From assembly GCA_016937175.1 (NCBI GenBank), contig JAFGWL010000013.1:1-64000 (forward strand): a DNA stretch of 64,000 bases, written 5' to 3'. Source of the stretch: Candidatus Mcinerneyibacteriota bacterium. GTDB taxonomy: Bacteria; Macinerneyibacteriota; Macinerneyibacteria; Macinerneyibacteriales; DSCS01. Of the stretch, positions 25,811 to 46,996 are shown piece by piece (position 1 is the first letter of the stretch; each line of letters opens with the position of its first letter). The notes beneath the pieces are model-generated. The model made no database searches and was not told the DNA's origin. It was given only the letters and a program-made list of their open reading frames with translations. A program made the position numbers and the translations under genes.

Positions 25811-28800
25811 TCAATTCCCTGTATACTTCATGGAACTCCAGTATGCCGGGTGAGGGAAGAAAAGGCGCAGTTCTTTTTTTGCTTTCCAGAGGGCCAGAGG
25901 CGCCGGAGTCCCTTTGTCAAGTTCCCGGTAGAAGTGTTTGAAGAGCATTCCCGTAGCCACATCAGAGATTCGCCAAAGCGAGGAGATGACCGCGCTCTCT
26001 TCGGTTTTCATAAAGGCTCTGTCCAGGGCTGTGACTTCATCCCCCTCCCCCAGGACTCCGACTCCCGAATCACAGGCACTCAGGACCGCCAGGCGGGCTT
26101 GAGGGGTGAGATTGCGTATCTCTTCCACGTCGAACCTGCCGTCCAGATGGCCGCCGGAAGCAAAGAGAAGATGGGAAAGAAGTGAATAATGGCGGTTAAA
26201 GTAGCCATGGCAGGCAAAATGGATGATGTCATAATCCTTTGAAGCCATCTTTTCTCTGACCGCCTCTTCTGTGGCCGCTTTCCCTTTGAGGATATCGGTG
26301 ATGGGCCCGAAGATAAAACGGATCTCTCCGGCTTCTTTCTGGGCAAAATAGAGTTCCAGGTCGGGATTGTCCAGGTCCGGGTTTCCCACAGCCAGGATCG
26401 AACGGAAAGGCCCTGCCCCGGAGTTTTCCCTGAGCATGAAAAGGTCCGGGATATAGGTCACCGGAAAACGGTCGATAAGGTACTCTCCCTTTTTTACAAG
26501 AAGAGAGAAAGGCAGATAGTTGAGGACCCCTGAAGGCGATACGACCAGGTGGCCTGACTTCGGCAGGTCAAAGGGCAGGAGAAGGTCTCCCAGACGCGAT
26601 GACTCCCCGCGGATAACCTCTTCGCCGGCTGTTTCAGAGATCAGGTCGCGCAGACGGCTTACCTCTTCATTCAGGCGCTCTTTTCCCGCCGGGATGGAGT
26701 AACCGCTGATGGCTCCGTCCAGCCAGGACAGGAGAAGAGTCCGGTTTTCAAGGACAAGAAAAGACAGCACCAGGGTTCCCTGTGGAATCGTACCGGCGAA
26801 ATCCCGCTCCCCGGGGATGTCAGCGGATCCCTTCTGATTCATGGCGATCTCAAGTTTTAAACGGTCCAGGTCTTCTTTTCTCGCTTCATATTCTCGCACG
26901 ATGCTGGCGTCGTTTTTCATGAGAAGGTCGAGATGGTAGAGCTCTTTTTTCAACTTATCAAGGGCCTCTTCCTCCTCAGGCTTCAGGGTCGATTGCCCCG
27001 CCCCCAGGGGATTATTGACCAGGAAGGCTATCCGCTTCACCTTTTCCGTCGTAAAAAAAGACTTCTCAAATAGTCCTGCATCAAAATAGGCTTCAGCCAG
27101 AGAGCGGTAGATACCCTGATATTTTTTCAATAGCTTGACTTGAAGCCCGGGAGAGTCCATATCCTCCGCCATGGCTTCCAAAAGGGAAACCGCCATTTCA
27201 AAGTGATCGATCCGGCCTGAAAAGAGACCGAGATGATTGGCGATCTCCAAAGCCGTGGATATATCCCTGATGTCAAGAGCTTCCTGCCTGGCTTTCTCCA
27301 GCATGGGTATATCCTTTGTCACAAGCCCTGTGTAGTAGGAGGCATACATGGACTCTTCAGGAGTCAACTGGCCAAGATCCTTCATCTTCCCGAGATAAAG
27401 AAGCGCCTGCCCGGATGACCCGATCTGATAGGAGGTAATGGCCAGATGACGGTAAAGGCCTTTCAAAAGATAGCTGTTGTTCCGTGCCTGAGCTTCAGGA
27501 AGCTCACTTTCAAGAAGTGCCAGCGCTTCTTCCGGGCGTCCCGTTTCTCTCAGGATCAGGGATTTATTGATGATGAGAGCCGTCGTCTCCCCCACGATAT
27601 TGTATCGGCGGGCTGTTTCCAGCGCGCCATCTATCTCTGAAAGAGCCAGATGCTCACTTCCCGTCTCCAGAAGAGCCAGGGAGAGAAGGTTTTTGAGAAT
27701 GACTCGTTCAGCCTGGTTCTCTTTTTCCGGGAGGGATTGCAAAGTACGGCGGATGTAATCCAGACACTCATGATAGGCATTCGTCTTGAAGAGAAGATTG
27801 GCCATGCCGATGGCGGCATTGATCCTGATATTCCGCTCCGGAGATTCCGTGAGAGGCCGAAACAGAGCTTTAGCCGTCTCATAGTCCCCCTCTCTCAGGC
27901 TGATGGACCCCTTGAGGAGTTCCACAGTCTGCTGTTTGTCCCGGGAACGGACTTTTTCAAGAAGAGCCCTTGCCTTTTCATTTTCATTGAAGTACTTATA
28001 GTGGATCACAGCCCGTCTGATCAGGCTTTCTTCCGTATTGACAAGGTTCAGAAGCTCTGAAGCTTCTTCGTATTGGCCGTTTTTTTCATAAAGAGAGGCC
28101 AGCTGGAGTGTCTGGTCACCGGGGATCCGCCCCTCTTTGTAGAGGGCTATGGCGCGGCTGTAAAATCCCGTTCTCTCATAGAGGATGGCCAGATTTTTCT
28201 CGTAAGCCGATTCAGGCAGCCCCTTCAGGGATATATACTCTTTCAACTCTTGGCGGATCAGTTCCGGGTCCCTCAGATGGTCTGTTGCGATGGTGATCAT
28301 GAGGTAGAGGCGGCTTGTCAGGGTGGCTGTATCCTTTCGGGCCTTTAAAAGGGGGATCAAATTGGCCAATTCCCGGAAAGAACGGCTGTAATGCCCCTCT
28401 TTGTAATAGAGATAAGCCCTGCGGTCGATCTCACTTGTCTTTTCAGACAAAAAGGAAGCAAACTGTTTTTCTGTCATCTCCCTGTAGGAGAAGGTAATCT
28501 CCCCTATCTTGATTGTGTTAAGGCCTGCATAGATCAAAATATCTGTAAAAAGCCGCATAGAAATCGGAGAAGTAACCTCAGCTTCATCGACCCACAAGCC
28601 GTCCACCGTCAGGCCCTCCTTTAAAAACTGCAGCCCTGTATAGTCTCCTGCCTTACTGGCATAGGGATTGACCTGGTCACTCTCCAGGCTCCCGGAAAGA
28701 CGGAAATAACCGCTGCTTTCCTCGATCAGGGGTTTCCCCTCTGACAAGGACCACGGCCGGGGCATATGACGTCCTTCATAGAGAAGATAGAGCTGGGAGA

Positions 28801-31800
28801 GCGAAAAGGCATTATAGGCGGAAGAGCGGAACGAATCAGCCTTGCGGTCTATGATAAAAGTGGCATCCGGCGGAATATCCTGCTCGATACGGGCTCTGTC
28901 CCGTGTAAGCAGAAGAAATTTCTTCTCCAGCCGGTAGGCGATGATATCATCGGGAGAGAGCATCCTGCGGAGGCTCTCCCCTTTCAGGAAGGGGATACCT
29001 GAGATGAGTCTGGCGCGTTGATCCAGTTTCTCCGCGTAGCGGGATGCTTCTGCAAGGTCTTCACGGCCCAGATAGTAGAAATAGTTGCCCAGATTCACCG
29101 TATCCAGCTGGGAAAAGAGCTCAGGTTTATAGAAAAGGTAGCGTATCCTCTCTTCAAAGGACTCGAACCCGGACAAAAGGCGCACAAGACGATCGAAGTC
29201 GGTTTTCTCCGTTACGGCATCTTCCAGAAGCTGAAAGGGAATATAGCCTTTGTCCCTGAAAAAGGCTGCAAACCGGGGAGCTGTTTTATCATCGGCCCGA
29301 TTGATGGAATCAGATGCTTTTTCAAGGAATTCGAAACATGATTCGGGAGAAGATCTCCTTGTCAAAAGCGCTGCATCTATATTGATCAGAAAATCAAGAA
29401 AAACATCTTCTCCCTGCAGGCTCATAAGAGAAGAGAGGACGTCGTCTCCGAGAAACCGGTGCAGGAAAAGGTAAAAAAGACGCTTCATGGCGGGACTCAC
29501 TCCGGGCCTTTGGAGGAGAGAACGGATCTTCTCATAGCGCCTGAAATCCTTCTCCTGTTTGTCTACAGCTTCCCTGAGGGTGGAGAAAGACTCCTCCCGG
29601 GGAGCCGTCTTCATAAAAGCCAGAATCATCATCCATTGATGAAGCTCCTGCAGATCCGGATCCCTGATGGCTTTCACCCGTTCCTCCATGCCTTCCAAAA
29701 TTCCCAGGGGATCCGGAGATGAGTCCATATTAAGGAAGAGTGATGAAAGCTCGTTGATCAGCAGCCCCTTCTGGAACTTGTTCTCACGTGAGATCTCCAA
29801 AGAGCGGTCCAGATACTCCTGAAGGAGCTGATCATTGCCGATACGATAATAGAGAGAAGCGAAATTATTGGTGATGACCATATCCGCATAGGGGCTGTCG
29901 GAAACAGCGAGTTTTTCTTTGAACAGGTCCACGGCTGCTGACATCTCCCCTTTGTTCATGGAGGCCGCAGCCATGATGGAAAGAAGAAGGTTCCGTTCCA
30001 TCTCCGGGGTAAATCCCCGGTAAGCACCGGTCTCATGAGCTCCTGAGAGCGCCATGGCAATGCTTATATCCAGGAGGCCTCCCCCCTCTTTTTTGCGTGC
30101 CTGATCCCCCTGCAGAAGGTCCAACCCCTTTTTGGCATGAAAAAGAGCCTTGTCGGTATCGTCTCCCAACAGGGCATTGTAGGCGATATTCCTGTGATAA
30201 AGGACCTGCCGGACAGGGTCTTCTCCCGAAAGCCCCAGGGAAAGAGCCCTTTCAAAGTAACGGACAGATTCCAGATGTTTTCCTGAAAGAGAAGTGACCA
30301 TTCCAAGATGTTTGAGAATATAATCCTGCCCCCGGATATCCTGGTCTTCCAAATAGAGAGTCAAAAGTTTCCGGTCGAAGGAGGCTGTCTCTTCATATTG
30401 ATTGAGATTGTAATGGATGGTGGATAAGCGGAGCAGATACTGTTTTTCCTCCTGACGTCCCTGATAAGGAGGTATCTTTCCTGACATGGCGGTATAATAG
30501 TCAAGCGCCTTGTCAAAGATCCGGAGTTTGAAGTAGATGTTGGCCATGTTCTTTTCAAAATAGCCTCTGAGAAGTCTATCGTCTGTATCGGCCAGGGCCA
30601 GGCCTGTCTTGTACTCTCCCAGGGCCATTTCCAGGTATTGCCCCTGTCCAAGACGCTCCATCTCCTCGTAAAGCCATCCCAGGGTCAGATGCATGATCCC
30701 CTCCTGGGGACGACGGCCCACAGAGCTTACGACCAGATCCAGGGCCTCTTCATAGGCTGCGAGGGTGAGGTCAGTTCTCCCTCGCACTTCGTAGGATGTC
30801 CCCACATAGGTCAGGGCAAACCCGTAAAGGTACTGCATGAGAGGGTCTTCCGGATGATCCAGGTATAGGGCTTTATAACGCCCTGCTGTCTCCATGATAT
30901 TTCCCAGGAGGTAATCCAGCCGGATCATGGCCCGGTTGATCTCCAGATCCCCGGGCAAGGCCTCCCTCAAAAGAAGGATTATCTTTCGTGCCTTCAGAAG
31001 GTCCTCTTCTTTTTCATACTCTTCAGCCACGGCTACAGCCCTGGACCTCAGAAAGGAGACGATATCTTTATAATAGACGCCGTTATAGCCTGATGTGAGA
31101 ATATTTGAAAAGGCTGTTATCCCTTCTTCTGTCTCATAACGGCTGTAGATCTCAAGCAGGATGGGATAGAGCATCTCCCGGTTCTCATCTTCCCGGCCCT
31201 TGACCTTATGCCACTCCTGAAGTGCGCCGGCATAGTCTCCGACTACAAGGAGAGAATCCATGAGTGCCCCTGTGGCTCCGTAAAAGAGAGTGGAGCCGGG
31301 AGGGTTCTCATCCCGTATCCGGCTCAGAATATTGAGGGAATAGCCGCTCCCGGCTTTGTATTCCGCCCTCACCTTCAGATAAAGGCTCACAGCTTCGGTC
31401 ACGTAACGGTCACGGTAGAAGGCGTTATTGATTATCTTTTCCAGGAGTCCGAGTGCCGGGGTTTTCCGGCCTGTCATCAGCGCTGAGCGGGCAGCTAAGA
31501 GGGAAAGTTTGTTTTTCAGCCCGGTGGAGCGGATCCTGTTTTCCAGTGTAGAAAACGTCTCCAAAACAGCGCGATGCTCACCGGCTTCATAAAGACGGAA
31601 AATCAGGCGCTCAGACATCCCCTCTTCATAAAGAGAGGGAGCCCCGGCAATATCTTCTTTTGTGACCAGAGGTTTCAAAAGAGTCCCTTCGGCCAGGTAG
31701 GAAAATTTATCCGCCTCCCTTTCAGCCAGACGCGGGTATCCTGTTTCCAGGAGCTTATTGATATAATGTGTCAAAAAAAGAAGTGATTCGCGGGGCGAAA

Positions 31801-32758
31801 AGAGAGAGACGACTTTCTCGGCCAGAGGGAGGATCTCCTCTGGCTTGTCTGTCCGCTCCAGGTAATTGTTGTAATGGTAGACCGAAGAAAAACTGTAGGC
31901 AAGGTCTTCCCTGCTTTTATAGGAGAGTTTCGGGCCCTTTGTAAAAAAAAGGGTATCACTTGAAAGCGTAAAACTATGAAGTCCTTCTGCTCCAAAGAGA
32001 TAATGCTCTCTGCCCTCCTCCGATGAAGTGAGAAAGGCTGTCTGCAGATTCTCTTCCCTTCCGGGCACATCTTCTGCCAGTGGATAGGAGAGATAATAGA
32101 GTTTCCCTGTGACAGGATCATAAAAAAGGTCTGATTTGGGCAAAGGAGAAGTCTTCAGAACCCGGATATTCCCGGTGGCGGTCTCCACGGACAGGATCTC
32201 TCTGTCTCTGAGAAGATAGACCTCCCCTTCTCCAAAGGCAAGGTCTTCCGCGCCGGAGAACTCAGACCGATAGACCTCCTTCCCCTCACGGCTTAAGATG
32301 ACAAGGTCTGTCTTTCCCTCTTCGCGCGACAGGGCTGCGATCAGGGAGCCGTCGGGAGAGAACCGGGGAGACATCTCCCGGACGAAAGGCCTGCCCAGAT
32401 TTGTCATCTTTCCTCCCTGCAGAAGCAGGATGTCCCCCAGGACATCATACTGGTCCGAGGTGACAAGCAGGCTTCCCCTGCTGTCAGTATCTTCCAGGCT
32501 CTCTTCATAAGATGTTGAAAAAAGAGCCTCGCTCATTTGTGCGGTAAAATCATATTTGATGACTTGACGGTTGTTGTTGTCGATAACGGTATAGTAGAGA
32601 CACCCTGTCTCCGGGCAGAAACGCACAGATTCTATTCCCCCCAGCTGGACATCGATCTGCCCCTCAGGAGGCATCTCCTGCACGAGTCCGCTTTTGAGAG
32701 TACATCCTCCGGCTCCCAGAAGAATCAGGAGGAGAAACAGAAACGTTTTACGGTGCAC
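25811..32758 (-). CDS. Giant TPR-CHAT lipoprotein (2315 residues)
   Basis: A signal sequence with a relaxed lipobox (LLGAGGC, Cys19) predicts an exported lipoprotein. Residues about 40-270 contain beta-propeller/TolB-like repeats (SPRFSPDGSLIAALSREEGK). Residues about 290-2000 are helical with many TPR-like units (GWLYEEMERLGQGQYLEMA; LAILYERTGFYSRAIALYKE). The last about 260 residues form a CHAT domain, a caspase-like peptidase, with His2184 in IHFACHG and Cys2229 in LSACDSG, so the catalytic dyad is intact. CHAT proteins are known in separase-like and gasdermin/type III-E CRISPR settings, mostly cytoplasmic; an envelope-anchored version is unusual. Translation starts at GTG 32758 behind GGAAGGAG and overlaps the DUF1318 gene by 11 bp, indicating an operon with it and the AsmA/YdbH-like gene. 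Confidence 0.88.
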   Translation of the reverse strand: MHRKTFLFLLLILLGAGGCTLKSGLVQEMPPEGQIDVQLGGIESVRFCPETGCLYYTVIDNNNRQVIKYDFTAQMSEALFSTSYEESLEDTDSRGSLLVTSDQYDVLGDILLLQGGKMTNLGRPFVREMSPRFSPDGSLIAALSREEGKTDLVILSREGKEVYRSEFSGAEDLAFGEGEVYLLRDREILSVETATGNIRVLKTSPLPKSDLFYDPVTGKLYYLSYPLAEDVPGREENLQTAFLTSSEEGREHYLFGAEGLHSFTLSSDTLFFTKGPKLSYKSREDLAYSFSSVYHYNNYLERTDKPEEILPLAEKVVSLFSPRESLLFLTHYINKLLETGYPRLAEREADKFSYLAEGTLLKPLVTKEDIAGAPSLYEEGMSERLIFRLYEAGEHRAVLETFSTLENRIRSTGLKNKLSLLAARSALMTGRKTPALGLLEKIINNAFYRDRYVTEAVSLYLKVRAEYKAGSGYSLNILSRIRDENPPGSTLFYGATGALMDSLLVVGDYAGALQEWHKVKGREDENREMLYPILLEIYSRYETEEGITAFSNILTSGYNGVYYKDIVSFLRSRAVAVAEEYEKEEDLLKARKIILLLREALPGDLEINRAMIRLDYLLGNIMETAGRYKALYLDHPEDPLMQYLYGFALTYVGTSYEVRGRTDLTLAAYEEALDLVVSSVGRRPQEGIMHLTLGWLYEEMERLGQGQYLEMALGEYKTGLALADTDDRLLRGYFEKNMANIYFKLRIFDKALDYYTAMSGKIPPYQGRQEEKQYLLRLSTIHYNLNQYEETASFDRKLLTLYLEDQDIRGQDYILKHLGMVTSLSGKHLESVRYFERALSLGLSGEDPVRQVLYHRNIAYNALLGDDTDKALFHAKKGLDLLQGDQARKKEGGGLLDISIAMALSGAHETGAYRGFTPEMERNLLLSIMAAASMNKGEMSAAVDLFKEKLAVSDSPYADMVITNNFASLYYRIGNDQLLQEYLDRSLEISRENKFQKGLLINELSSLFLNMDSSPDPLGILEGMEERVKAIRDPDLQELHQWMMILAFMKTAPREESFSTLREAVDKQEKDFRRYEKIRSLLQRPGVSPAMKRLFYLFLHRFLGDDVLSSLMSLQGEDVFLDFLINIDAALLTRRSSPESCFEFLEKASDSINRADDKTAPRFAAFFRDKGYIPFQLLEDAVTEKTDFDRLVRLLSGFESFEERIRYLFYKPELFSQLDTVNLGNYFYYLGREDLAEASRYAEKLDQRARLISGIPFLKGESLRRMLSPDDIIAYRLEKKFLLLTRDRARIEQDIPPDATFIIDRKADSFRSSAYNAFSLSQLYLLYEGRHMPRPWSLSEGKPLIEESSGYFRLSGSLESDQVNPYASKAGDYTGLQFLKEGLTVDGLWVDEAEVTSPISMRLFTDILIYAGLNTIKIGEITFSYREMTEKQFASFLSEKTSEIDRRAYLYYKEGHYSRSFRELANLIPLLKARKDTATLTSRLYLMITIATDHLRDPELIRQELKEYISLKGLPESAYEKNLAILYERTGFYSRAIALYKEGRIPGDQTLQLASLYEKNGQYEEASELLNLVNTEESLIRRAVIHYKYFNENEKARALLEKVRSRDKQQTVELLKGSISLREGDYETAKALFRPLTESPERNIRINAAIGMANLLFKTNAYHECLDYIRRTLQSLPEKENQAERVILKNLLSLALLETGSEHLALSEIDGALETARRYNIVGETTALIINKSLILRETGRPEEALALLESELPEAQARNNSYLLKGLYRHLAITSYQIGSSGQALLYLGKMKDLGQLTPEESMYASYYTGLVTKDIPMLEKARQEALDIRDISTALEIANHLGLFSGRIDHFEMAVSLLEAMAEDMDSPGLQVKLLKKYQGIYRSLAEAYFDAGLFEKSFFTTEKVKRIAFLVNNPLGAGQSTLKPEEEEALDKLKKELYHLDLLMKNDASIVREYEARKEDLDRLKLEIAMNQKGSADIPGERDFAGTIPQGTLVLSFLVLENRTLLLSWLDGAISGYSIPAGKERLNEEVSRLRDLISETAGEEVIRGESSRLGDLLLPFDLPKSGHLVVSPSGVLNYLPFSLLVKKGEYLIDRFPVTYIPDLFMLRENSGAGPFRSILAVGNPDLDNPDLELYFAQKEAGEIRFIFGPITDILKGKAATEEAVREKMASKDYDIIHFACHGYFNRHYSLLSHLLFASGGHLDGRFDVEEIRNLTPQARLAVLSACDSGVGVLGEGDEVTALDRAFMKTEESAVISSLWRISDVATGMLFKHFYRELDKGTPAPLALWKAKKELRLFFPHPAYWSSMKYTGN

Positions 32759-33323
32759 TCTTCTCCTTCCAGCTGCCCGAGGCGTCCTGAATCAGCCAGC
32801 CTGGCCTGGCCTCGTCATGCATTTTATGAGCAAAGATCTCTTCCACTTTTCCCAGGTCATTCTCGCTTAATCCCTGGGTGATGCTGATAATGCGGTTATA
32901 GATGATCCTCCGGTCACGGTTCTCTTCCTGCAAAAACCGGTCGACCAGACGGGCAAGCTCTTTGTCCTCATCCAGCCGTCGGGAATCCCTGATCTCCACA
33001 TACCCGCTGTTGGACTCCCCTATGATCTTCATATCCATAAAACGCTGATAGTCGTCTTTATTGTAGAGTCTGTTCTGATAGGCTAAAAGAGATCTCCTTT
33101 TTTCATCGGAAATCTCGGCGATATCATCGGGGAGAGCCCTGACAGAGACAAGCAGCATAGGATCAGCCCCGATAAAGGAGTAGTTGCCCAGAACCTGGTT
33201 TTCCAGAGAGGTCTTCTCTCCCACCAGAGTGATCTCGATCTTCGCCTTGGGGCTTAAGAGAGAACACCCCGCAATAGCCAGCCCCGCGGCGAGATATGAG
33301 ATGAGAAGAACGGCTTTGTTCAT
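32748..33323 (-). CDS. DUF1318 (YdbL-like) lipoprotein
   Basis: The 191-residue product has a clean lipobox (LAIAGC, Cys20). The C-terminal half matches the DUF1318/YdbL pattern: LVDRFLQEENRDRRIIYNRI, then a short helix-turn (GLSENDLGKVEEIFAHK) and ARPGWLIQDASGSWKEK. In E. coli, ydbL sits with ydbH (AsmA-like) and ynbE (outer-membrane lipoprotein) in an operon linked to inter-membrane lipid transport. Here a lipidated DUF1318 protein follows a YdbH-sized AsmA-like gene, so it may combine the YdbL and YnbE roles (inference). AAAGGAGTGTC-ATG gives the start, and it overlaps the CHAT gene start. Confidence 0.82.
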   Translation of the reverse strand: MNKAVLLISYLAAGLAIAGCSLLSPKAKIEITLVGEKTSLENQVLGNYSFIGADPMLLVSVRALPDDIAEISDEKRRSLLAYQNRLYNKDDYQRFMDMKIIGESNSGYVEIRDSRRLDEDKELARLVDRFLQEENRDRRIIYNRIISITQGLSENDLGKVEEIFAHKMHDEARPGWLIQDASGSWKEKSAP

Positions 33324-33335
33324 GACACTCCTTTC

Positions 33336-35957
33336 TTAAAAGACAAGACCTGCTTCTTTGAGGATACTGTCCAGAGGAATACGCCTGATGGGTTCGACAT
33401 CCAGCCCTCCTATAAGAAAACCCAGGGCGAATGAGACTAAATTGGATCGGCGGAATCCGAAGGTGGGATGGATGTTGACAAACCCGTTGGATGTGGTGAC
33501 CAGCACATTTTTGGGTACTACCCCTACCATATTAAGCTTCTTGCGCATGCCTTGTATCTGGGGGTTTTTCTTGTCCGGGTCGAGAGAGAGGAGAGCTTTG
33601 TCCAGGACATCGCTGTCGATCTTTGTAATATCCCAGAATCCTTCCACTTCCGTTCCTTTACCCTTAAAGCGGGAAACCATGGAGAGAAGAGAGGTTCCTC
33701 CTTTGCCTGTCCCTTTTCTGATGTTCAGGTCGATGGCATTGAATTGAATATCGTAACTCAACACGTCCAGGTCGGCCGAAAGAGCCCCTCCGATCTGGCC
33801 ATCCAGAAAACGGCCATAAAAAGTGTGGACAGAGGCTTTTTTATTGACAGCGCTCAGAGAAGCCGCGAAATCTCTGATGACGAAATGCTGAAAACCGCCC
33901 TTCTCCATCCTGAAATTGATCTCTTCTCCCTGCCTCAACTCCCCGGGGGCGAATGGCCCGAAGTAGTAGGGAAGCGAAAGAGTCAGGCCCGTGACTGAGA
34001 TATCCCTGTCGTATTGGAGAGATCCCATTGAACAGTCAAAGACAGCCTTCCATTTTTTCTGAGTTCCTTCAAACCAGAGCCTCCCGTCGATTTCCTCCAA
34101 CCGGATCTTCTTTTCCGGATAAGAGAGAGATACACCGTCCATGGTGTTGTCTGTCTTGATGAACGGGGCAGCGAGGGTCCCTGAGAGATCCAATGTGAAG
34201 TTGACAGTCCCCTTTGATTCGATTGCCGGCAGTCCCGGGGCGAAGGAGATGAGTTCAGGGATATCGATCTTGGAATGGGAGAGAGTCAGATTGATGTTTT
34301 CTTCCCCCCACTTTTCCAGGGAGCCGTTTACAAGGAAGCGGTTGTTCTTCCCCAGTTTCAAAAAAAAGTTATCGCAGTAAAGATACTTCTGCATAGGAGC
34401 GATGATGAGCCCTCCTCCCATGCTGACTTTGGGGATCTTGACCGGCGAAAAATCAGTCCGGAAATCGATCTCCTGGGCTCCTGCCGAGATCAGCAGAGTC
34501 AACCCTTTGGAAATGGAACCGGTGACTTCTGCCAGGGCGTTCAGTTTTGCATAAAGAGGAATATCAAAATAGTTATAAAAGGTGAAATCACGCATCTGGA
34601 GGTTAAGCTGCAATGAATCCAGGTCCGGGGTATTACCCCGAAGTTTCAGCATTCCCCCGTAGAGGGAGAAGGAGAAATCTTCCAGGGTACATGCTCCTGT
34701 CATGCGCTGCGGATCCAGATGGCCCTTCACGGCCAGATGGATATTCTTCAAAGGCTCTGTCATGCGGGAGACTAAAAGAGAAGCGATCTCGGCTTCGGCG
34801 CTGATCTCCAGGTTCTCAGGGGTCCCTCCCAATGACAGGGTCACCAGAGCGTCTTTTAAAGAGGCTTCGCTGGCTGATGCCGAAGGGATACGGAGGATCA
34901 CCTTGCCTCTCATCGTCTCCTTCCGCGCTTCTCCCCGGGTCCGGATGTAACCTTCTACAGAGACCGGGGGAAAGCCGGGAATAGCCCGCCGGAGGATACT
35001 GGTGAGCCCGTCCAGGTCAATGTCCGAAAAAAGACGGCTGAAGGAGAGGGACTCAAACTTCATCGCATCATCAAAGAGGATTTTTCCCCGTATTTCGGCC
35101 AATGTCAACTGGTTCACAGCCACAGTAAAGTCTCCTGCTGTCAGGCTCTTCCTGGTTGTGCTGAGAAGATAGGATCCTTTCTGTGTCAGGGTCACCTCTC
35201 TTTCGGGTTCTCTGGCAGAGACAGCCTCCTTCAAAGCCAGAGAGCCGTCTGAGACAGCCGCCTGTAAGGATACTCCGTAGGGGAGAAAAAGCCTGTCCGG
35301 TCCGTTACCCAGCGTGACATTGTTATCATTAGTGCGGAGTCTGAAATAGCCTGTAAGTCCCTGAAATGTCCCGTCAGGAGCTTCAACAGCGCCCTCAAGG
35401 GAAAACGAGCCGGAATGAGAGACTCCCTTCCCCTGATAAAGAAGGCGAAGATTCCTGACATCAAGAGACCTGACCCGGAAACGGGGTATCTTTTCGGGGA
35501 TCAGAGGCTTTTTCTCAAGAGGTGTCTCTTCCTCTTTCCCTCCAGGGACACTTTCCTTTATTCGCCCATCTGAAAAAGAGGCCTCCTTCATGGAAAAGGT
35601 GACATCTTCCAGTGATATCGACTCGATTTCAACAAGCCCCCGAAAGAAAGCGAAGGGAGAAATCCGGATATGAATACGGCCTGCCGAAAGGTCTCCCCGG
35701 GGAAGAGAAAGGGTGAGGTCTTTTAACGTCAGGGAAAAAGGCAGTCGGGAAACGGACGATCCTGCAGAAAGGGGTAAAAAACGGGAGACAAGTGAGCTGT
35801 TCAGGACTCCTGGTGAAAGAAGGCTGTTGAGAAGAGAGAAGAAGAAAGCCATATGGACCAGAAAAGAAACAACGACTCCGCCTGCAGCAAGAAGAAGAGC
35901 TTCCCCCTTCCGGCCTTCCCTCTGATCTTGCTTTTTATCGTGTTTCAGACGACTCAT
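33336..35957 (-). CDS. AsmA/YdbH-like inter-membrane bridge protein
   Basis: The 873-residue protein has one N-terminal membrane anchor (about 22-48) after a basic cytoplasmic stretch, then a long beta-rich region with short amphipathic strands typical of AsmA-like (repeating beta-groove) proteins: VEIESISLEDVTFSM, LTLAEIRGKILFDDAMKFES, GLSLTLPYYFG-like segments and a C-terminal block LNMVGVVPKNVLVTTSNG with a final hydrophobic end (ILKEAGLVF). Its length is close to E. coli YdbH (about 880) and the DUF1318 gene follows 12 bp later. Such proteins span the periplasm and are thought to pass phospholipids to the outer membrane. AAAAGGGGCC precedes the ATG. The family call is by pattern and context. 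Confidence 0.75.
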   Translation of the reverse strand: MSRLKHDKKQDQREGRKGEALLLAAGGVVVSFLVHMAFFFSLLNSLLSPGVLNSSLVSRFLPLSAGSSVSRLPFSLTLKDLTLSLPRGDLSAGRIHIRISPFAFFRGLVEIESISLEDVTFSMKEASFSDGRIKESVPGGKEEETPLEKKPLIPEKIPRFRVRSLDVRNLRLLYQGKGVSHSGSFSLEGAVEAPDGTFQGLTGYFRLRTNDNNVTLGNGPDRLFLPYGVSLQAAVSDGSLALKEAVSAREPEREVTLTQKGSYLLSTTRKSLTAGDFTVAVNQLTLAEIRGKILFDDAMKFESLSFSRLFSDIDLDGLTSILRRAIPGFPPVSVEGYIRTRGEARKETMRGKVILRIPSASASEASLKDALVTLSLGGTPENLEISAEAEIASLLVSRMTEPLKNIHLAVKGHLDPQRMTGACTLEDFSFSLYGGMLKLRGNTPDLDSLQLNLQMRDFTFYNYFDIPLYAKLNALAEVTGSISKGLTLLISAGAQEIDFRTDFSPVKIPKVSMGGGLIIAPMQKYLYCDNFFLKLGKNNRFLVNGSLEKWGEENINLTLSHSKIDIPELISFAPGLPAIESKGTVNFTLDLSGTLAAPFIKTDNTMDGVSLSYPEKKIRLEEIDGRLWFEGTQKKWKAVFDCSMGSLQYDRDISVTGLTLSLPYYFGPFAPGELRQGEEINFRMEKGGFQHFVIRDFAASLSAVNKKASVHTFYGRFLDGQIGGALSADLDVLSYDIQFNAIDLNIRKGTGKGGTSLLSMVSRFKGKGTEVEGFWDITKIDSDVLDKALLSLDPDKKNPQIQGMRKKLNMVGVVPKNVLVTTSNGFVNIHPTFGFRRSNLVSFALGFLIGGLDVEPIRRIPLDSILKEAGLVF

Positions 35958-36033: not shown

Positions 36034-36062
36034 AAAAAATAAAGGGGAGCTTAACGCTCCCC
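36034..36062 (-). terminator. Terminator of valS overlapping its stop codon
   Basis: Minus strand: GGGGAGC-GTTAA-GCTCCCC followed by TTTATTTTTT. The stop TAA is in the loop. It separates the kdsA-valS operon from the AsmA-like operon. A TATACT-like -10 at 36016-36021 may serve the AsmA gene, but no good -35 accompanies it. Confidence 0.85.
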
Positions 36063-38486
36063 CCATTTGATGGCCATGAGAAGGTCTCCCTCGCCGCACC
36101 TGGCGTCCGGCTCTTTAACCGGCGCCCGCTTTTCAACCTTCAGAAGAGAATCTATCTGACGGAGGACCCCCTCTTCGAACTCCTTTTTGGCATATCCCTC
36201 ATCGTCCAGTAATGCGATGGGATGAGCCAGAGAAAGTTTATGTTCTGATTTAGCTTTTCTTATAAATTCCACATATCTGAGGACTTTCTCTCCCTCTTCA
36301 GCTGCTCCGTCGAAAGCCTGATAGTTTTCAGGCAGAGGCCAGGGGGCCAGATGAATGGACTTTTCGGGTAAAAAGTCAGTGAAATAGAGTTGATAGATCT
36401 CTTCTGTGATATGAGGCAAGAAGGGAGCGAAGAGGCGCAGAACCCCGTAAAGGACTGTAAAAAGAGCCCACTGACTCCCCTTTTTCTCCTCTCGGGTCCC
36501 TTCCTTGATCTTGCCTTTCACCAGTTCGATATAATTATCGCAGAGGTCTTTCCAGAAAAAAGTCTCGATGGACTGAAGTGCAAGGCCGTATTCATAGCGC
36601 TCGAGATATTCGGTGGCCGTTCCTGCCGTGGACCGGAAAGATTCCAGGATCCAGCGGTCCACACTGTTAAGGCTCCCCCCTTTTTCGCCTGAATAACCTT
36701 CCAGGTTCATGATGGCGAATTTTGAGGCGTTCCAGAGTTTTGTGACGAGTTTACGCCCGTCTTTAAGGACATCTTCTGAAAAAAAAGTGTCCATCCCCAA
36801 CCGCGACCCTGCCGTCCAGTACCTGACCGGATCGGCTGAATGCTGAGCTACCAGAGCCTGGGGAGTCTGTCCTGCATTTCCTTTGGATTTGGATATCTTT
36901 TTGCGCTGAGGGTCCAGGCTGTGCCCGGATATCATGATGTTCTTCCAGGGTGGCACTCCATGATGGTAATAGGACTTGACGATGGTATAGAAAGCCCATG
37001 TGCGGATGATGTCATGTGCCTGGGGGCGCAGGTCCATGGGGAAGATCTCCTTCATCCGGTCGTCTTTTTCGCCCCATTTCCCGTTTATCTGAGGCGTCAC
37101 CGACGAGGTGGCCCAGGTGTCCAGGACATCTCTCTCGGGGACAAAAGAGGTCCCTCCACAGGACGGACAGGGCTTTCCCGGGCCATCTTTCAGGGGGTTG
37201 ACCGGAAGGGAGCTTTTATCGGCCACAACAGGCTCCCCGCAATCGTCGCAGTACCAGAGGGGGAACGGTACTCCAAAATAACGTTGTCTGGAGATCCCCC
37301 AGTCCCATTTGAGATTGGAAACCCAATGTATATAACGCTCTTTCATGAATTCAGGGTACCATTTAATGGAATCAGCCAAGCGGATAAGCTCTTCTTTATG
37401 CTCGAGGATCTTGATAAACCACTGTTTTTTAACGATAAACTCCATCTCCCGCCCGCAACGGTCATGAGTGTTTACAGGATGGGTGACATGGCGTTTCCCG
37501 CGTACGAAACCGCCCTCTTCCAGGTCGTTTATGATGGCTTTTCGCGCCTCTTTGATCTTCATCCCCTCGTAGGGACCCGCCAGGGTATTCATGCGGCCGT
37601 TTTCGTCTATGGCCTGGCGCAGCTCCAGGTTGTGGGTATGATACCATTCCACATCGGTGGAATCGCCGAAGGTACAGCACATGACCGCCCCGGAGCCCTT
37701 CTCCGGATCGACTTTGTCATCGGGACGGATAGTCACATCGATATCAAAAAGCGGTGGGCGGACAGTCATCCCGTGGGCCTTTTTATACCTGGGGTCTTCC
37801 GGATGGACGAAGACAGCGGTCAGCGCCGGAAGGAGTTCAGGGCGCGTGGTGGAGATGATCAGTTCCTCTCCGTTTTCCAGCGTAAAGGCGATATCCACGA
37901 ATTCCGAATCGAACTCTTTGTCTTCTGTCTCAGCCTGGGCCACAGTAGTCCGACAATGGGGACAATAGAGCGCCGGGGTAGCCTTATGGACCACATAGCC
38001 CTTTTCAAAGAGATCGATAAACGAACGCTGGGAGATCCGGCGTGAACGCTCATCGATGGTGGAATAGAGCTGATTCCAGTCAGCCGAGAAACCCAGGCTT
38101 TGCCAGAGAGCCTTGAATTCCGCTTCTACTTCAGCAGAGACCTCAAGACAATGAGAGATGAACTCCTCCCTGTCCATGGAGGAGGCGTTTTTTTTCAGCT
38201 TTTTCTCCACAAGGCGCTCGGTAGGAAGCCCGTTATCATCAAACCCGAAGGGATAGAAGACATTGTAACCCCGCATGCGTTTGTATCGCGTCATGATCTC
38301 AGCCTGGGTATAGGAAAAGACATGGCCGATATGCAGCTGTCCCGAGACCGTGGGGGGAGGAGTGTCTACTGAATAGACGGGCTTATCCCCTTTCCCTTCG
38401 TATGAAAAGATATTCTCCTCTTCCCAGAAACGTTGCCATTTTTTCTCTGAATCCAATCCGCCGTAATATTTTGGCAGCTCTTTCAT
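36051..38486 (-). CDS. valS: Valyl-tRNA synthetase, short archaeal/rickettsial-like form
   Basis: This 811-residue class I synthetase charges tRNA-Val. HIGH motif HIGH at 52-55 (GQLHIGHVFSYTQAEIM), the CP1 editing domain with TTRPELLPA, a zinc-like CPHC/CDDC-CPSC set, the DWGISRQRYFGVPFP block and the KMSKS motif as KISKSKGN. It lacks the C-terminal coiled-coil arm of usual bacterial ValRS (about 880-950 residues), and GFDDNGLPTERLVEKKL is typical of the archaeal/rickettsial type. Two tRNA-Val genes occur elsewhere in the window. CGAGGAGGAACAG-ATG marks the start. It ends the kdsA-kdsD-kdsC-valS unit; no T-box precedes it, since only 21 bp separate it from kdsC. Confidence 0.95.
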   Translation of the reverse strand: MKELPKYYGGLDSEKKWQRFWEEENIFSYEGKGDKPVYSVDTPPPTVSGQLHIGHVFSYTQAEIMTRYKRMRGYNVFYPFGFDDNGLPTERLVEKKLKKNASSMDREEFISHCLEVSAEVEAEFKALWQSLGFSADWNQLYSTIDERSRRISQRSFIDLFEKGYVVHKATPALYCPHCRTTVAQAETEDKEFDSEFVDIAFTLENGEELIISTTRPELLPALTAVFVHPEDPRYKKAHGMTVRPPLFDIDVTIRPDDKVDPEKGSGAVMCCTFGDSTDVEWYHTHNLELRQAIDENGRMNTLAGPYEGMKIKEARKAIINDLEEGGFVRGKRHVTHPVNTHDRCGREMEFIVKKQWFIKILEHKEELIRLADSIKWYPEFMKERYIHWVSNLKWDWGISRQRYFGVPFPLWYCDDCGEPVVADKSSLPVNPLKDGPGKPCPSCGGTSFVPERDVLDTWATSSVTPQINGKWGEKDDRMKEIFPMDLRPQAHDIIRTWAFYTIVKSYYHHGVPPWKNIMISGHSLDPQRKKISKSKGNAGQTPQALVAQHSADPVRYWTAGSRLGMDTFFSEDVLKDGRKLVTKLWNASKFAIMNLEGYSGEKGGSLNSVDRWILESFRSTAGTATEYLERYEYGLALQSIETFFWKDLCDNYIELVKGKIKEGTREEKKGSQWALFTVLYGVLRLFAPFLPHITEEIYQLYFTDFLPEKSIHLAPWPLPENYQAFDGAAEEGEKVLRYVEFIRKAKSEHKLSLAHPIALLDDEGYAKKEFEEGVLRQIDSLLKVEKRAPVKEPDARCGEGDLLMAIKWGER

Positions 38487-38507: not shown

Positions 38508-39014
38508 TCAGGGTATAAAAGGGTCCCAGTCATGGGCCTTCATAATAAGATCGGTGATTTCACGGGCCGCTCCCCGTCCTCCGGGAAGGCTTGTCACATA
38601 ATCGGCTTCCTGCAGCATGAGTTCGTGGGCATCGGACACGGTAAAAGCGATACCTGCACGCTTGAAGACCTCCAACTCGGGGATATCGTCTCCCACACAA
38701 GCTGTCTCTTCATCCTGAAGATGATATTTGGCTTTCAACTCTTCATAGACAGAGAGTTTGTCTTTGATCCCCTGATAGACCTCTGTGATTCCCAGGTCCC
38801 GGGCCCTCTTTTCTACAAGGCGGGATTTTCGTCCTGTCACGATAGCAAGGACGATCCCCCGCGAGAGAAGCATTTTCATCCCCAGCCCGTCGCGGGAGTG
38901 GAACGCCTTATATTCTCTTCCTTCGTCATCCATATAGAGAGAGCCGTCGGTAAGGACGCCGTCCACATCGAAGATGATAAGCCTGATCTTTCTGAGCTGG
39001 TCTTCAAATGTCAT
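38508..39014 (-). CDS. kdsC: 3-deoxy-D-manno-octulosonate 8-phosphate phosphatase
   Basis: The 168-residue HAD phosphatase lacks a cap domain, as KdsC does. Motif I is IFDVDGVLTDG (about 14-24), motif II VTGRKS (about 57-62), and motif IV CVGDDIPELEVFKRAG (about 99-115). It removes phosphate from KDO-8-P. It overlaps kdsD by ATGA and sits in the KDO operon, which fixes the assignment. Confidence 0.93.
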   Translation of the reverse strand: MTFEDQLRKIRLIIFDVDGVLTDGSLYMDDEGREYKAFHSRDGLGMKMLLSRGIVLAIVTGRKSRLVEKRARDLGITEVYQGIKDKLSVYEELKAKYHLQDEETACVGDDIPELEVFKRAGIAFTVSDAHELMLQEADYVTSLPGGRGAAREITDLIMKAHDWDPFIP

Positions 39015-39967
39015 AAGATCCCCGCTTTGAGAATGTCATGAATATGGATAACGCCTTCGATATGCTCGGAATCGTCCACCACCACAAGAGAGGTGATATT
39101 GTAGTCTTCCATGTTTTTGAGGGCAAAAGCAGCTAACTTATCCTCAGTGATGGTCTTGGGGTGGCGGATCATGATATCTTTCATAAGGATTTGATTGAGA
39201 GAGTCATGGGTCTGCAGAAAACGTTTGAAATCTCCGTCGGTGAAGATGCCCAAAAGATGTCCTGAATCATCTGCAACGGTGGTCATCCCCTTTCCCTTGG
39301 AGGAGATCTCATAGATGGCCTCTTTCAGCGGCGTCTCCGGCGAGACCCTCGGGATGGCTTCTCCTGTGACCATGAGATCGGCCACGGTAAGCAAAAGTTT
39401 TTTCCCTAAAGCTCCTCCTGGATGGTAGAGGGCGAAATCTTCAGCTTTAAACCCCTTCTCTTCAAGAAGGGTGATAGCCAACATGTCTCCGAGGACGAGA
39501 GTGACCGTCGTGGAAGCTGTAGGGGCCAGGTTCAGGGGGCAGGCCTCCTTCTCCACAGAGATATCAAGGACTTCGTCGCTGTATCGGGCCAGGGTAGACT
39601 CCTTTTTCCCGGTAATAGCTATGAGAGGGACGCCCATGCGTTTCAGAGTCGGCAGTATCTTGATGAGTTCTTCTGTCTCCCCGCTGTTGGAGATGGCGAT
39701 GACCAAGTCTTCCCGGCGGATCATACCCAAGTCGCCATGAGAAGCTTCCGCCGGATGAAGAAAAAATGATGGAGTCCCGGTACTGGCCAGGGTTGCCGAG
39801 ATCTTTCGGCCCACGAGCCCCGATTTGCCCATCCCGGTGATGACGACGCTTCCCTTGACCGAGGCCAGCAGAGTCACTGCATGAAAAAAGCGATTGTCGA
39901 TCCTGTCGTAGAGTCTCTTCAAAGCCTCCAGTTCCACATCCAGAACGCGCCGGGCCGCCTCTTTCAC
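39011..39967 (-). CDS. kdsD: Arabinose-5-phosphate isomerase (SIS + two CBS)
   Basis: The 318-residue enzyme converts ribulose 5-phosphate to arabinose 5-phosphate, the first step to KDO. The N-terminal SIS domain carries [20 protein letters not shown] (about 44-63) and SNSGETEEL (about 92-100); two CBS domains follow (about 195-318), as in KdsD/KpsF. The start is GTG 39967, overlapping the kdsA stop as GTGA. Confidence 0.94.
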
Positions 39968-40788
39968 AGGCTCTCCTCCTTGACAAGGGTATCGAGTTTT
40001 TTGAAAAAATCCAGCATAGCGGGAAGGTCTCTCAGAGAGACCATATTGGGCCCGTCGGAGAGTCCTTTGTCCGGGTCGGGATGTACTTCCATAAAGAGTC
40101 CTGCGATACCGGCGGTAAGAGCGGCTTTAGCCAGGGGAAATACATACTCACGGTTTCCCCCGCTTCGCCCTCCCAGCCCGCCAGGCTGCTGGACACTGTG
40201 GGTGGCGTCGAAAACAACCGGATATCCCATCTGACGCAACACGACCAGAGAGCGGATATCTGTGATCAGGTTATTGTAACCGAAACTTGCTCCTCTTTCG
40301 GTGAGAAGGATCTTTTCATTTCCCGTAGAGGCCACTTTTGCAGCGGCATGGGTCATGTCCCAGGGAGCTAAAAACTGTCCTTTTTTGATATTGACGGGGA
40401 TCCCGGTCTTTCCCGCTTCCAGGAGAAGGTCAGTCTGACGGCAGAGAAATGCGGGAATCTGTATCATGTCGACCACTTGTGCAGCAGCCTTGGCCTGTTC
40501 CTCTGTATGGATATCCGTGACCACCGGGAGTCCAAGCTCATCCTTGACCTTTTGCAGGATGCGGAGGCCCTCTTCCAGGCCGGGCCCGCGGTAGCTTTCT
40601 ATTGATGACCTGTTGGCTTTATCGAAAGAGGCTTTGAAGATAAAAAATATGCCTCTGTCCCTGCAGATCTTCTGAAGATCCTCGGCAATATCGAGCACCA
40701 TTTTCTCCCCTTCGATGACACATGGGCCGGCGATGAGAAAAAACGGTGAATCGTTGGAAAGTGTATGGTTTTGGATTGAAACAGCCAT
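39964..40788 (-). CDS. kdsA: KDO-8-phosphate synthase
   Basis: The 274-residue enzyme joins arabinose 5-phosphate and phosphoenolpyruvate. Family marks: IAGPCVIEG (about 19-27), [12 protein letters not shown] (about 55-66), [21 protein letters not shown] and [13 protein letters not shown] chose ATG 40788 because GAGGGAGGG precedes it and family alignment starts there; an in-frame ATG 26 codons upstream lies upstream of the promoter start. First gene of the KDO-valS operon. KDO implies lipopolysaccharide, lipooligosaccharide or a KDO-containing capsule; kdsB is not in the window. Confidence 0.95.
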
Positions 40789-40810
40789 GAGCCCTCCCTC
40801 GTTTAAATAA

Positions 40811-40835
40811 CGGCGGGGCCCTTCTGACCCCACCG
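40811..40835 (-). terminator. Hairpin after the XRE-GlmL fusion gene
   Basis: Minus strand: CGGTGGGG-loop-CCCCGCCG, an 8-bp stem with one G-T pair, followed by TTATTTAAA. It lies about 40 bases past the fusion stop and at the start of the kdsA leader, so it may also act in that leader. Confidence 0.55.
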
Positions 40836-40837
40836 AA

Positions 40838-40866
40838 ATCATATCACAGGCCGTTGGAAAAGTCAA
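40838..40866 (-). promoter_or_regulatory. Promoter of the kdsA-valS operon
   Basis: Minus strand: TTGACT (40866-40861), 17-bp spacer ending TGTGA (extended -10 TG), TATGAT (40843-40838). The start is near 40831. Confidence 0.7.
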
Positions 40867-45691: not shown

Positions 45692-46996
45692 TCACTCCCC
45701 GACTCGTTCGATCTCTGCCCCTAAACCCTGCAGGCGCGTGTCTATATGCTCATAGCCCCTGTCGATCTGAATGATATTATGGATCTCCGATATCCCCTGA
45801 GCTCCCAGAGCCGCGATAAGAAGAGAGATCCCCGCTCTGATGTCCGGGCTGACCACTTCGCTCCCCAGAAGAGGAGAAGGCCCGATGATAACGACTCTGT
45901 GGGGGTCGCACAAGACGATCTGAGCTCCCATATACTTAAGTTTATCCACAAAGAACATGCGGCTTTCAAACATCTTTTCATGGACGATAACGCTTCCGTG
46001 AGCCTGTGTAGCCGCCACGATGATGACCGAAGTGAGGTCGGCCGGGAAAAGAGGCCATGGCCCGTCGCTGATGGTGGGGATCGCTCCCTTGAAATCGGGC
46101 CTGATCTTCATCTTCTGAGAGCCGGGTATAAAGAGGTCTTTTCCCTTTTTTGAGAATTGAAGCCCAAGGCGTTTGAACCCTGATGAGATCACGGCAAAAA
46201 CATCTTCATTGTCCCTGAAGACGTCAGAAATGGTTATCTCTCCGCCGGTTACAGCCGCCAGAGACATAAAACTCCCCGCTTCGATATAATCATACTGGAT
46301 ACGGTACCGGCCTCCGGAAAGGTTTCGGACGCCTTCGATGGTGATACGGTTTGTCCCTGCCCCTTCAATGCGGGCCCCCAAGCTGTTGAGAAAGTTACAG
46401 AGTCCCTGGACATGAGGCTCACAGGCAGCGTTATAGATGACCGTACGTCCCCGGGCCGTGACCGCAGCCATGACGGCATTCTCCGTGGCTGTCACAGAGG
46501 GCTCATCCAGCAGGATGGAGGCTCCTGTAAGGCTTTTTCCCGAGACTGAAAAGTGGAGCCTTTCTGCTTTTTCATCATGCTCCAGATTTGCGCCGAGCTG
46601 TTCCATGACTAAAAGATGAGTATCTATCCTCCGCCGCCCGATCCTGTCCCCCCCGGGAAGAGGGCAGCTCACCTCCCCTTTTCGCGCAAGAAGAGGCCCG
46701 ATGAGAGTCAGAGAGGCTCTCAACTGTTTGAACAGCCCTTCATCAAGGTCGCTTGAGTCAAGAGAAGAGGCATTGATCTTCCACTCATTTGCGCCCAGCC
46801 GCTCAACGCTTGTTCCCAGGGACCGGATCAGGTCAAGAAGGACATGGACATCTTTGATATCGGGCACGTTCTCCAGAATGATATCGTGCGGAGTCAGAAG
46901 GGATGCAGCGATGACAGGAAGCGCTTCGTTTTTATTGCCGGCTGGCCTTATAGGCCCTTTCAGGGGACGCCCGCCGGTGACCTTGAAATAGGACAT
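45692..46996 (-). CDS. murA: UDP-GlcNAc 1-carboxyvinyltransferase with Asp at the usual Cys position
   Basis: The 434-residue enzyme transfers enolpyruvate from PEP to UDP-GlcNAc, the first committed peptidoglycan step. The EPSP-synthase-like fold is complete ([14 protein letters not shown] near 21-34; [17 protein letters not shown] near 380-396). The active-site loop reads [15 protein letters not shown] (113-127): D117 stands where E. coli has Cys115. The Asp form is known in Mycobacterium, Chlamydia and Borrelia and is insensitive to fosfomycin. AGGAGGGCCT precedes the ATG and overlaps the end of the small gene upstream. Confidence 0.95.

Follow-up and report, generated by a model that had tools for sequence, protein, structure and literature searches.

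An exported propeller-TPR-CHAT giant encoded behind a bridge-like protein and a DUF1318 lipoprotein as parts of a candidate envelope machine

The presence of a very long exported protein with a caspase-like CHAT domain, encoded directly behind a membrane-anchored bridge protein and a DUF1318 lipoprotein, raises the question of whether the three act together at the bacterial envelope and, if so, what a protease would do there. The window, by which we mean the whole 64,000-nucleotide stretch that was analyzed (positions 1 to 64,000 of contig JAFGWL010000013.1, from a Candidatus Mcinerneyibacteriota bacterium), belongs to a 1.88-Mb genome that is 98.7% complete, the nearest named relatives of which are Candidatus Mcinerneyibacterium aminivorans and SpSt-1200, a MAG filed as Bacillota that a search assigned to the genus of the window. 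Record DSCS01000058.1 (L015) is titled Bacillota, although the search puts it in that genus, within Mcinerneyibacteriota. The three genes are codirectional on the minus strand. The bridge gene (33336..35957; 873 aa) is separated by a 12-bp spacer (33324-33335) from the DUF1318 gene (32748..33323; 191 aa), which overlaps by 11 bp (32748-32758) the gene for the giant (25811..32758; 2315 aa, GTG start). ORF calls reproduced the coordinates, single direction, gap, and overlap given in an earlier note on this DNA, and in genome G001 ORFs of matching length (168, 811, 872, and 191 aa) follow one another as they do in the window, as far as the giant.

Upstream of the bridge gene and in the same direction lie valS (36051-38486, minus strand), an unusual gene whose best match is NF009687, and, beyond it, the kdsA-kdsD-kdsC genes for KDO synthesis (38508..40866, minus strand), which we treat as context outside the claimed system. 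Since the cell makes KDO for LPS, it is very probably an LPS-bearing diderm. The murA gene lies farther upstream (45692-46996), and together with the kds genes it shows LPS and peptidoglycan synthesis in Mcinerneyibacteriota. The segment 40877-43924 encodes a 1015-aa protein that combines a helix-turn-helix with a MutL (PF13941) domain.

The bridge protein has a hydrophobic anchor at approximately residues 21-45 and is otherwise beta-rich. The description of this protein as an anchor followed by an AsmA-like chain thus stands as to the anchor and the beta-rich chain, but it matched no Pfam family, AsmA families included, and its AsmA character comes through its relatives: proteins encoded at the equivalent place in operons elsewhere match AsmA (1e-13), DUF748 (2e-13), and YhdP (2e-8), and the window bridge would belong to the AsmA clan only by way of them. 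The label YdbH-like found no support, as hhalign of the window bridge with Escherichia coli YdbH gave an E value of 0.16 and detected no sequence relation. An AlphaFold model (pLDDT 35) was too poor for a beta-groove (taco) fold to be read from it. A C-terminal module of approximately 230 residues (about residues 633-866; 33360..34061, minus strand), marked by a DPDKKNPQ...RKKL motif, is shared with bridges of other phyla (hhalign to four other bridges, E 3.4e-9). Since it is encoded next to the DUF1318 gene, this module may form the end of the bridge that meets the lipoprotein.

The lipoprotein carries a lipobox-like Cys20 and a DUF1318 domain (PF07027; residues 92-188, 32760..33050, minus strand; 1.8e-11, 44.9 bits against a cut-off of 27), and its C-terminus is homologous to E. 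coli YdbL (hhalign, E 4e-9), so that the lipobox and YdbL-like C-terminus read from the bare sequence were both borne out. We divided DUF1318 proteins by eye into class 1, which includes the window protein and has an N-terminal motif like [KRD][TS]xxExQxxGxY, and class 2, in which the N-termini are VNVYFP-like or of other kinds. The class-1 hallmark in the window is GEKTSLENQVLGNY (33180..33221, minus strand). The layout makes a YnbE-YdbL fusion attractive, but this idea was dropped for want of sequence support: hhalign to YnbE covered 17 columns at the lipobox with a probability of 23, and homology was not detected.

The giant begins with a signal sequence containing Cys19, which makes it a probable lipoprotein as far as its N-terminus can be read, and continues through a propeller-like region (approximately residues 38-330; 31769..32647, minus strand) and several TPR families to a C-terminal CHAT domain (PF12770; residues 2065-2314, 25817..26566, minus strand). 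All four elements named in the earlier note were therefore seen, although the propeller is weak in the window protein, in which PD40 is marginal (0.0021, below the family cut-off); in most of the homologues tested PD40 is strong (1e-8 to 6e-50), and it is weak in two. The middle of the giant (28424-28996, approximately residues 1255-1445) is non-TPR and beta-looking; homologues of this region were found only within the phylum, and it did not match the giant of Candidatus Sumerlaeota described below.

The CHAT assignment is secure at the level of the profile (3e-47, 161.9 bits against a cut-off of 24). Searched against the PDB, the CHAT profile matched DdvA best (1.4e-11), as well as Csx29 and the Craspase TPR-CHAT protein, and the alignment places His2184 (codon 26207..26209, minus strand) and Cys2229 (codon 26072..26074, minus strand) on H615 and C658 of Csx29, the double mutation of which abolishes cleavage (PMC10028731). 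Both residues are invariant in nine linked homologues, in keeping with the claim of an intact dyad. The earlier note had also proposed structure prediction, and a model of residues 1840-2315 (pLDDT 68, with a low-confidence catalytic loop) supports a CHAT fold: the best Foldseek matches were Craspase TPR-CHAT and SAVED-CHAT, and VIA-align recovered Craspase, DdvA, separase, and caspases with Z scores of up to 12 and a large rmsd.

How far does this arrangement extend beyond the window? Within Mcinerneyibacteriota the operon of bridge, DUF1318 lipoprotein, and CHAT giant is present in all three genomes examined, with identities of 58% and 27-28% for the giant and, well above these, 76% and 54% for the lipoprotein. 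A lipoprotein profile scan of named genomes found in Candidatus Sumerlaeota a 1434-aa bridge gene overlapping a DUF1318 gene, followed by a 2586-aa signal-propeller-TPR-CHAT protein related to the window giants by profile comparison (E 2e-34). DUF1318 occurs in 47 of 386 genomes spread over the bacteria, and a CHAT giant lies directly downstream of it in five more genomes (L049, L050, L058, L059, and L068). Outside Mcinerneyibacteriota the full order of bridge, DUF1318, and giant is found in Sumerlaeota and in the phyla of genomes G322 and G025. In four or more bacterial phyla DUF1318 and the giant are neighbors, and a large bridge-like gene usually precedes them. The phylum of G322 was surveyed most densely, with DUF1318 in 57 of 82 genomes. 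As the class-1 motif pattern was too narrow for this phylum, all 55 DUF1318 loci were counted; at 31 of them a CHAT giant lies no more than 400 bp downstream, and five others have a propeller giant in which CHAT was undetected, three of these ending at the contig end. At a few loci a single short ORF or a larger gap comes before the giant, and many of the remaining loci are contig ends. Most of family f280, whose DUF1318 genes mostly have no adjacent giant, is a real exception. Each of the three class-1 loci that could be determined in the phylum of G025 is linked to a giant. The earlier note had tied an exported CHAT protein to bridge and DUF1318 genes and had staked this on the neighborhood not being rare among homologues; the linkage recurs across phyla, and the claim survives.

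The giant and class-1 DUF1318 also occur together across genomes. In the 386-genome survey, any CHAT match was found in 22 of 26 class-1 genomes and in 80 of the 360 others (Fisher 2e-10), and a CHAT frame 2000 aa or more in length, among the matches listed, in 18 of 26 against 1 of 360 (Fisher 8e-24); both tests ignore kinship and rest on the matches listed, and are thus indicative. A directed look added giants in G224, G271, and G289, whereas three genomes with class-1 DUF1318 (G108, G244, and G102) gave no CHAT match on the same look. Several class-1 genomes carry the giant away from DUF1318, so that the two co-occur unlinked. Eight such unlinked giants keep the propeller-TPR-CHAT layout; PD40 is strong in six of them and weak or marginal in the other two. 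No propeller was detected in the giant of G352, the sole one outside class 1 among the matches listed, or in that of G371. Genes of 877 and 882 aa beside unlinked giants were considered as bridges by their size and were identified as PolA and ValS. At locus L139 (G357:C218), the CHAT profile matches two neighboring ORFs, of 376 and 666 aa, that lie next to one of 1363 aa, possibly a split giant in a genome with no DUF1318 match.

Linkage and co-occurrence strongly suggest that bridge, lipoprotein, and giant work together. The reading we favor, to which we nonetheless give somewhat less than an even chance, is that the three genes specify a single envelope machine, with a scaffold-held protease acting near an AsmA-clan-type bridge; it is favored because operon order is conserved across phyla and because giant and DUF1318 co-occur, and its LPS envelope follows from the KDO genes upstream. 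We infer the locations, lipid transport, docking, gating, and the existence of a substrate from known relatives. In an LPS-bearing diderm, the bridge would be anchored in the inner membrane and span the periplasm, and its conserved C-terminal end would be received or capped by the DUF1318 lipoprotein, which probably sits on the outer membrane. The exported propeller-TPR giant would dock on both as a scaffold that keeps the C-terminal caspase-like protease inactive. By analogy with Csx29, in which the CHAT site is gated allosterically, a change in the state of the bridge or its cargo would then lead the protease to cleave a protein near the bridge. A more specific and doubtful form of this proposal is envelope surveillance, in which the exported protease, carried on its propeller-TPR scaffold, would sense the state of a lipid bridge and cleave the bridge or an outer-membrane partner, as a widespread system.

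The main rival to this machine is that the giant serves the bridge primarily as a noncatalytic scaffold or assembly factor in the periplasm, whose propeller and TPRs would bind the bridge, the lipoprotein, peptidoglycan, or cargo, and whose CHAT domain is an accessory decaying in some lineages. Propeller and TPR together are a usual scaffold architecture. Among 61 giants, truncated frames set aside, CHAT is degenerate in approximately nine, and two linked giants (L055 and L205) have no CHAT; these proteins persist, most of them beside DUF1318. CHAT is still recognizable, with its catalytic residues lost, at L182, L186, L195, L197, L201, L202, L203, L211, and L136. Judged from such alignments, CHAT giants appear to have decayed repeatedly to pseudo-proteases, and predicted catalysis would be common but dispensable. 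The repeated loss of the dyad or of the whole CHAT domain from propeller-TPR giants that were kept in place speaks against proteolysis as their only or constant function, and the constant function is probably that of the propeller-TPR scaffold rather than catalysis. Both catalytic residues nevertheless align in 46 of the 61 giants, very distant ones included, and a mere scaffold would not need them. A scaffold with a secondary protease is therefore the rival that we take most seriously, if still as an unlikely account.

Less probable still is a giant whose protease processes or sorts surface proteins or lipoproteins, with a TamB- or GspN-like bridge that helps export by moving or inserting proteins rather than lipids. 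This idea draws on the NCBIfam matches of the window bridge to GspN and TamB, families that have both been associated with the export of proteins or lipoproteins (PMC12802150, PMC12800296), but these matches are weak (3e-4). A neighborhood inherited as shared ancestral gene order with no functional coupling is disfavored and quite improbable. The valS gene adjoins an unlinked CHAT giant in family f83 (L133, 13235-15868; L135, 1724-4372), possibly, given its place by the window operon, as a trace of ancestral order, and some order may thus be inherited for no obvious functional reason; against this, the linkage of the three genes outlasts divergence to 27-30% identity and spans several phyla while flanking genes change, and co-occurrence is kept where linkage is broken. 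Least credible is an immune or cell-death caspase that merely adjoins the bridge operon, since the CHAT fold shared with the defense proteins Craspase TPR-CHAT and SAVED-CHAT and a weak PADLOC match of the domain to BovA (5e-6) are set against a signal sequence, no other specific PADLOC defense match in the operon, and conservation and co-occurrence with the DUF1318 lipoprotein across phyla, unlike patchy defense genes.

Returning to the machine that we favor, both the passage of phospholipids across the envelope and the control of AsmA-type bridges are open questions, and, as far as an open-access search shows, none of the regulators described for such bridges has a protease domain. The exported caspase-like protein, encoded alongside a bridge-lipoprotein pair in several phyla, is a concrete and testable candidate, and the giants with naturally dead protease domains offer ready comparisons. 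It would also extend CHAT proteases from cytosolic immunity toward envelope biology. A search of the open-access literature, outside of which most subscription journals lie, found no paper joining a CHAT domain, AsmA, and the outer membrane, and almost nothing on DUF1318, a single paper that mentions it incidentally. The component families are known, and their combination and its spread appear undescribed in the open-access literature.

Three known systems frame the comparison. In E. coli, the AsmA-clan bridge YdbH acts together with the outer-membrane lipoprotein YnbE in phospholipid transport to the outer membrane (PMC8593681, PMC11784454), and ydbL is encoded beside the bridge gene ydbH in ydbH-ynbE-ydbL. 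Like the window operon, this one has a bridge gene and then a lipoprotein or DUF1318 gene, and the relation proposed in the earlier note holds for the YdbL half, which is homologous to the C-terminus of the window lipoprotein, but not for YdbH or YnbE, with which homology was not detectable. It differs further in that the window DUF1318 protein is a lipoprotein in its own right and bears another N-terminal motif, and in that the E. coli operon has no gene for a giant propeller-TPR-CHAT protein. Csx29, the TPR-CHAT protein of Craspase (type III-E CRISPR), has TPRs and then CHAT, as does the window giant, and an aligned dyad; the giant is exported, approximately three times longer, and headed by a propeller. 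Activation of Csx29 is gated by RNA in the cytosol and cannot apply outside the cytoplasm, and a Pfam scan of the operon and ten surrounding window proteins found neither gRAMP/Cas7-11 nor Csx30. DdvA (PDB 8rot, 8rw5), although named a transmembrane anti-sigma factor in its entry and only approximately 990 aa long, in both respects unlike the giant, is by entry title a membrane-associated CHAT protein, and it is the structure that the CHAT profile of the giant matches best.
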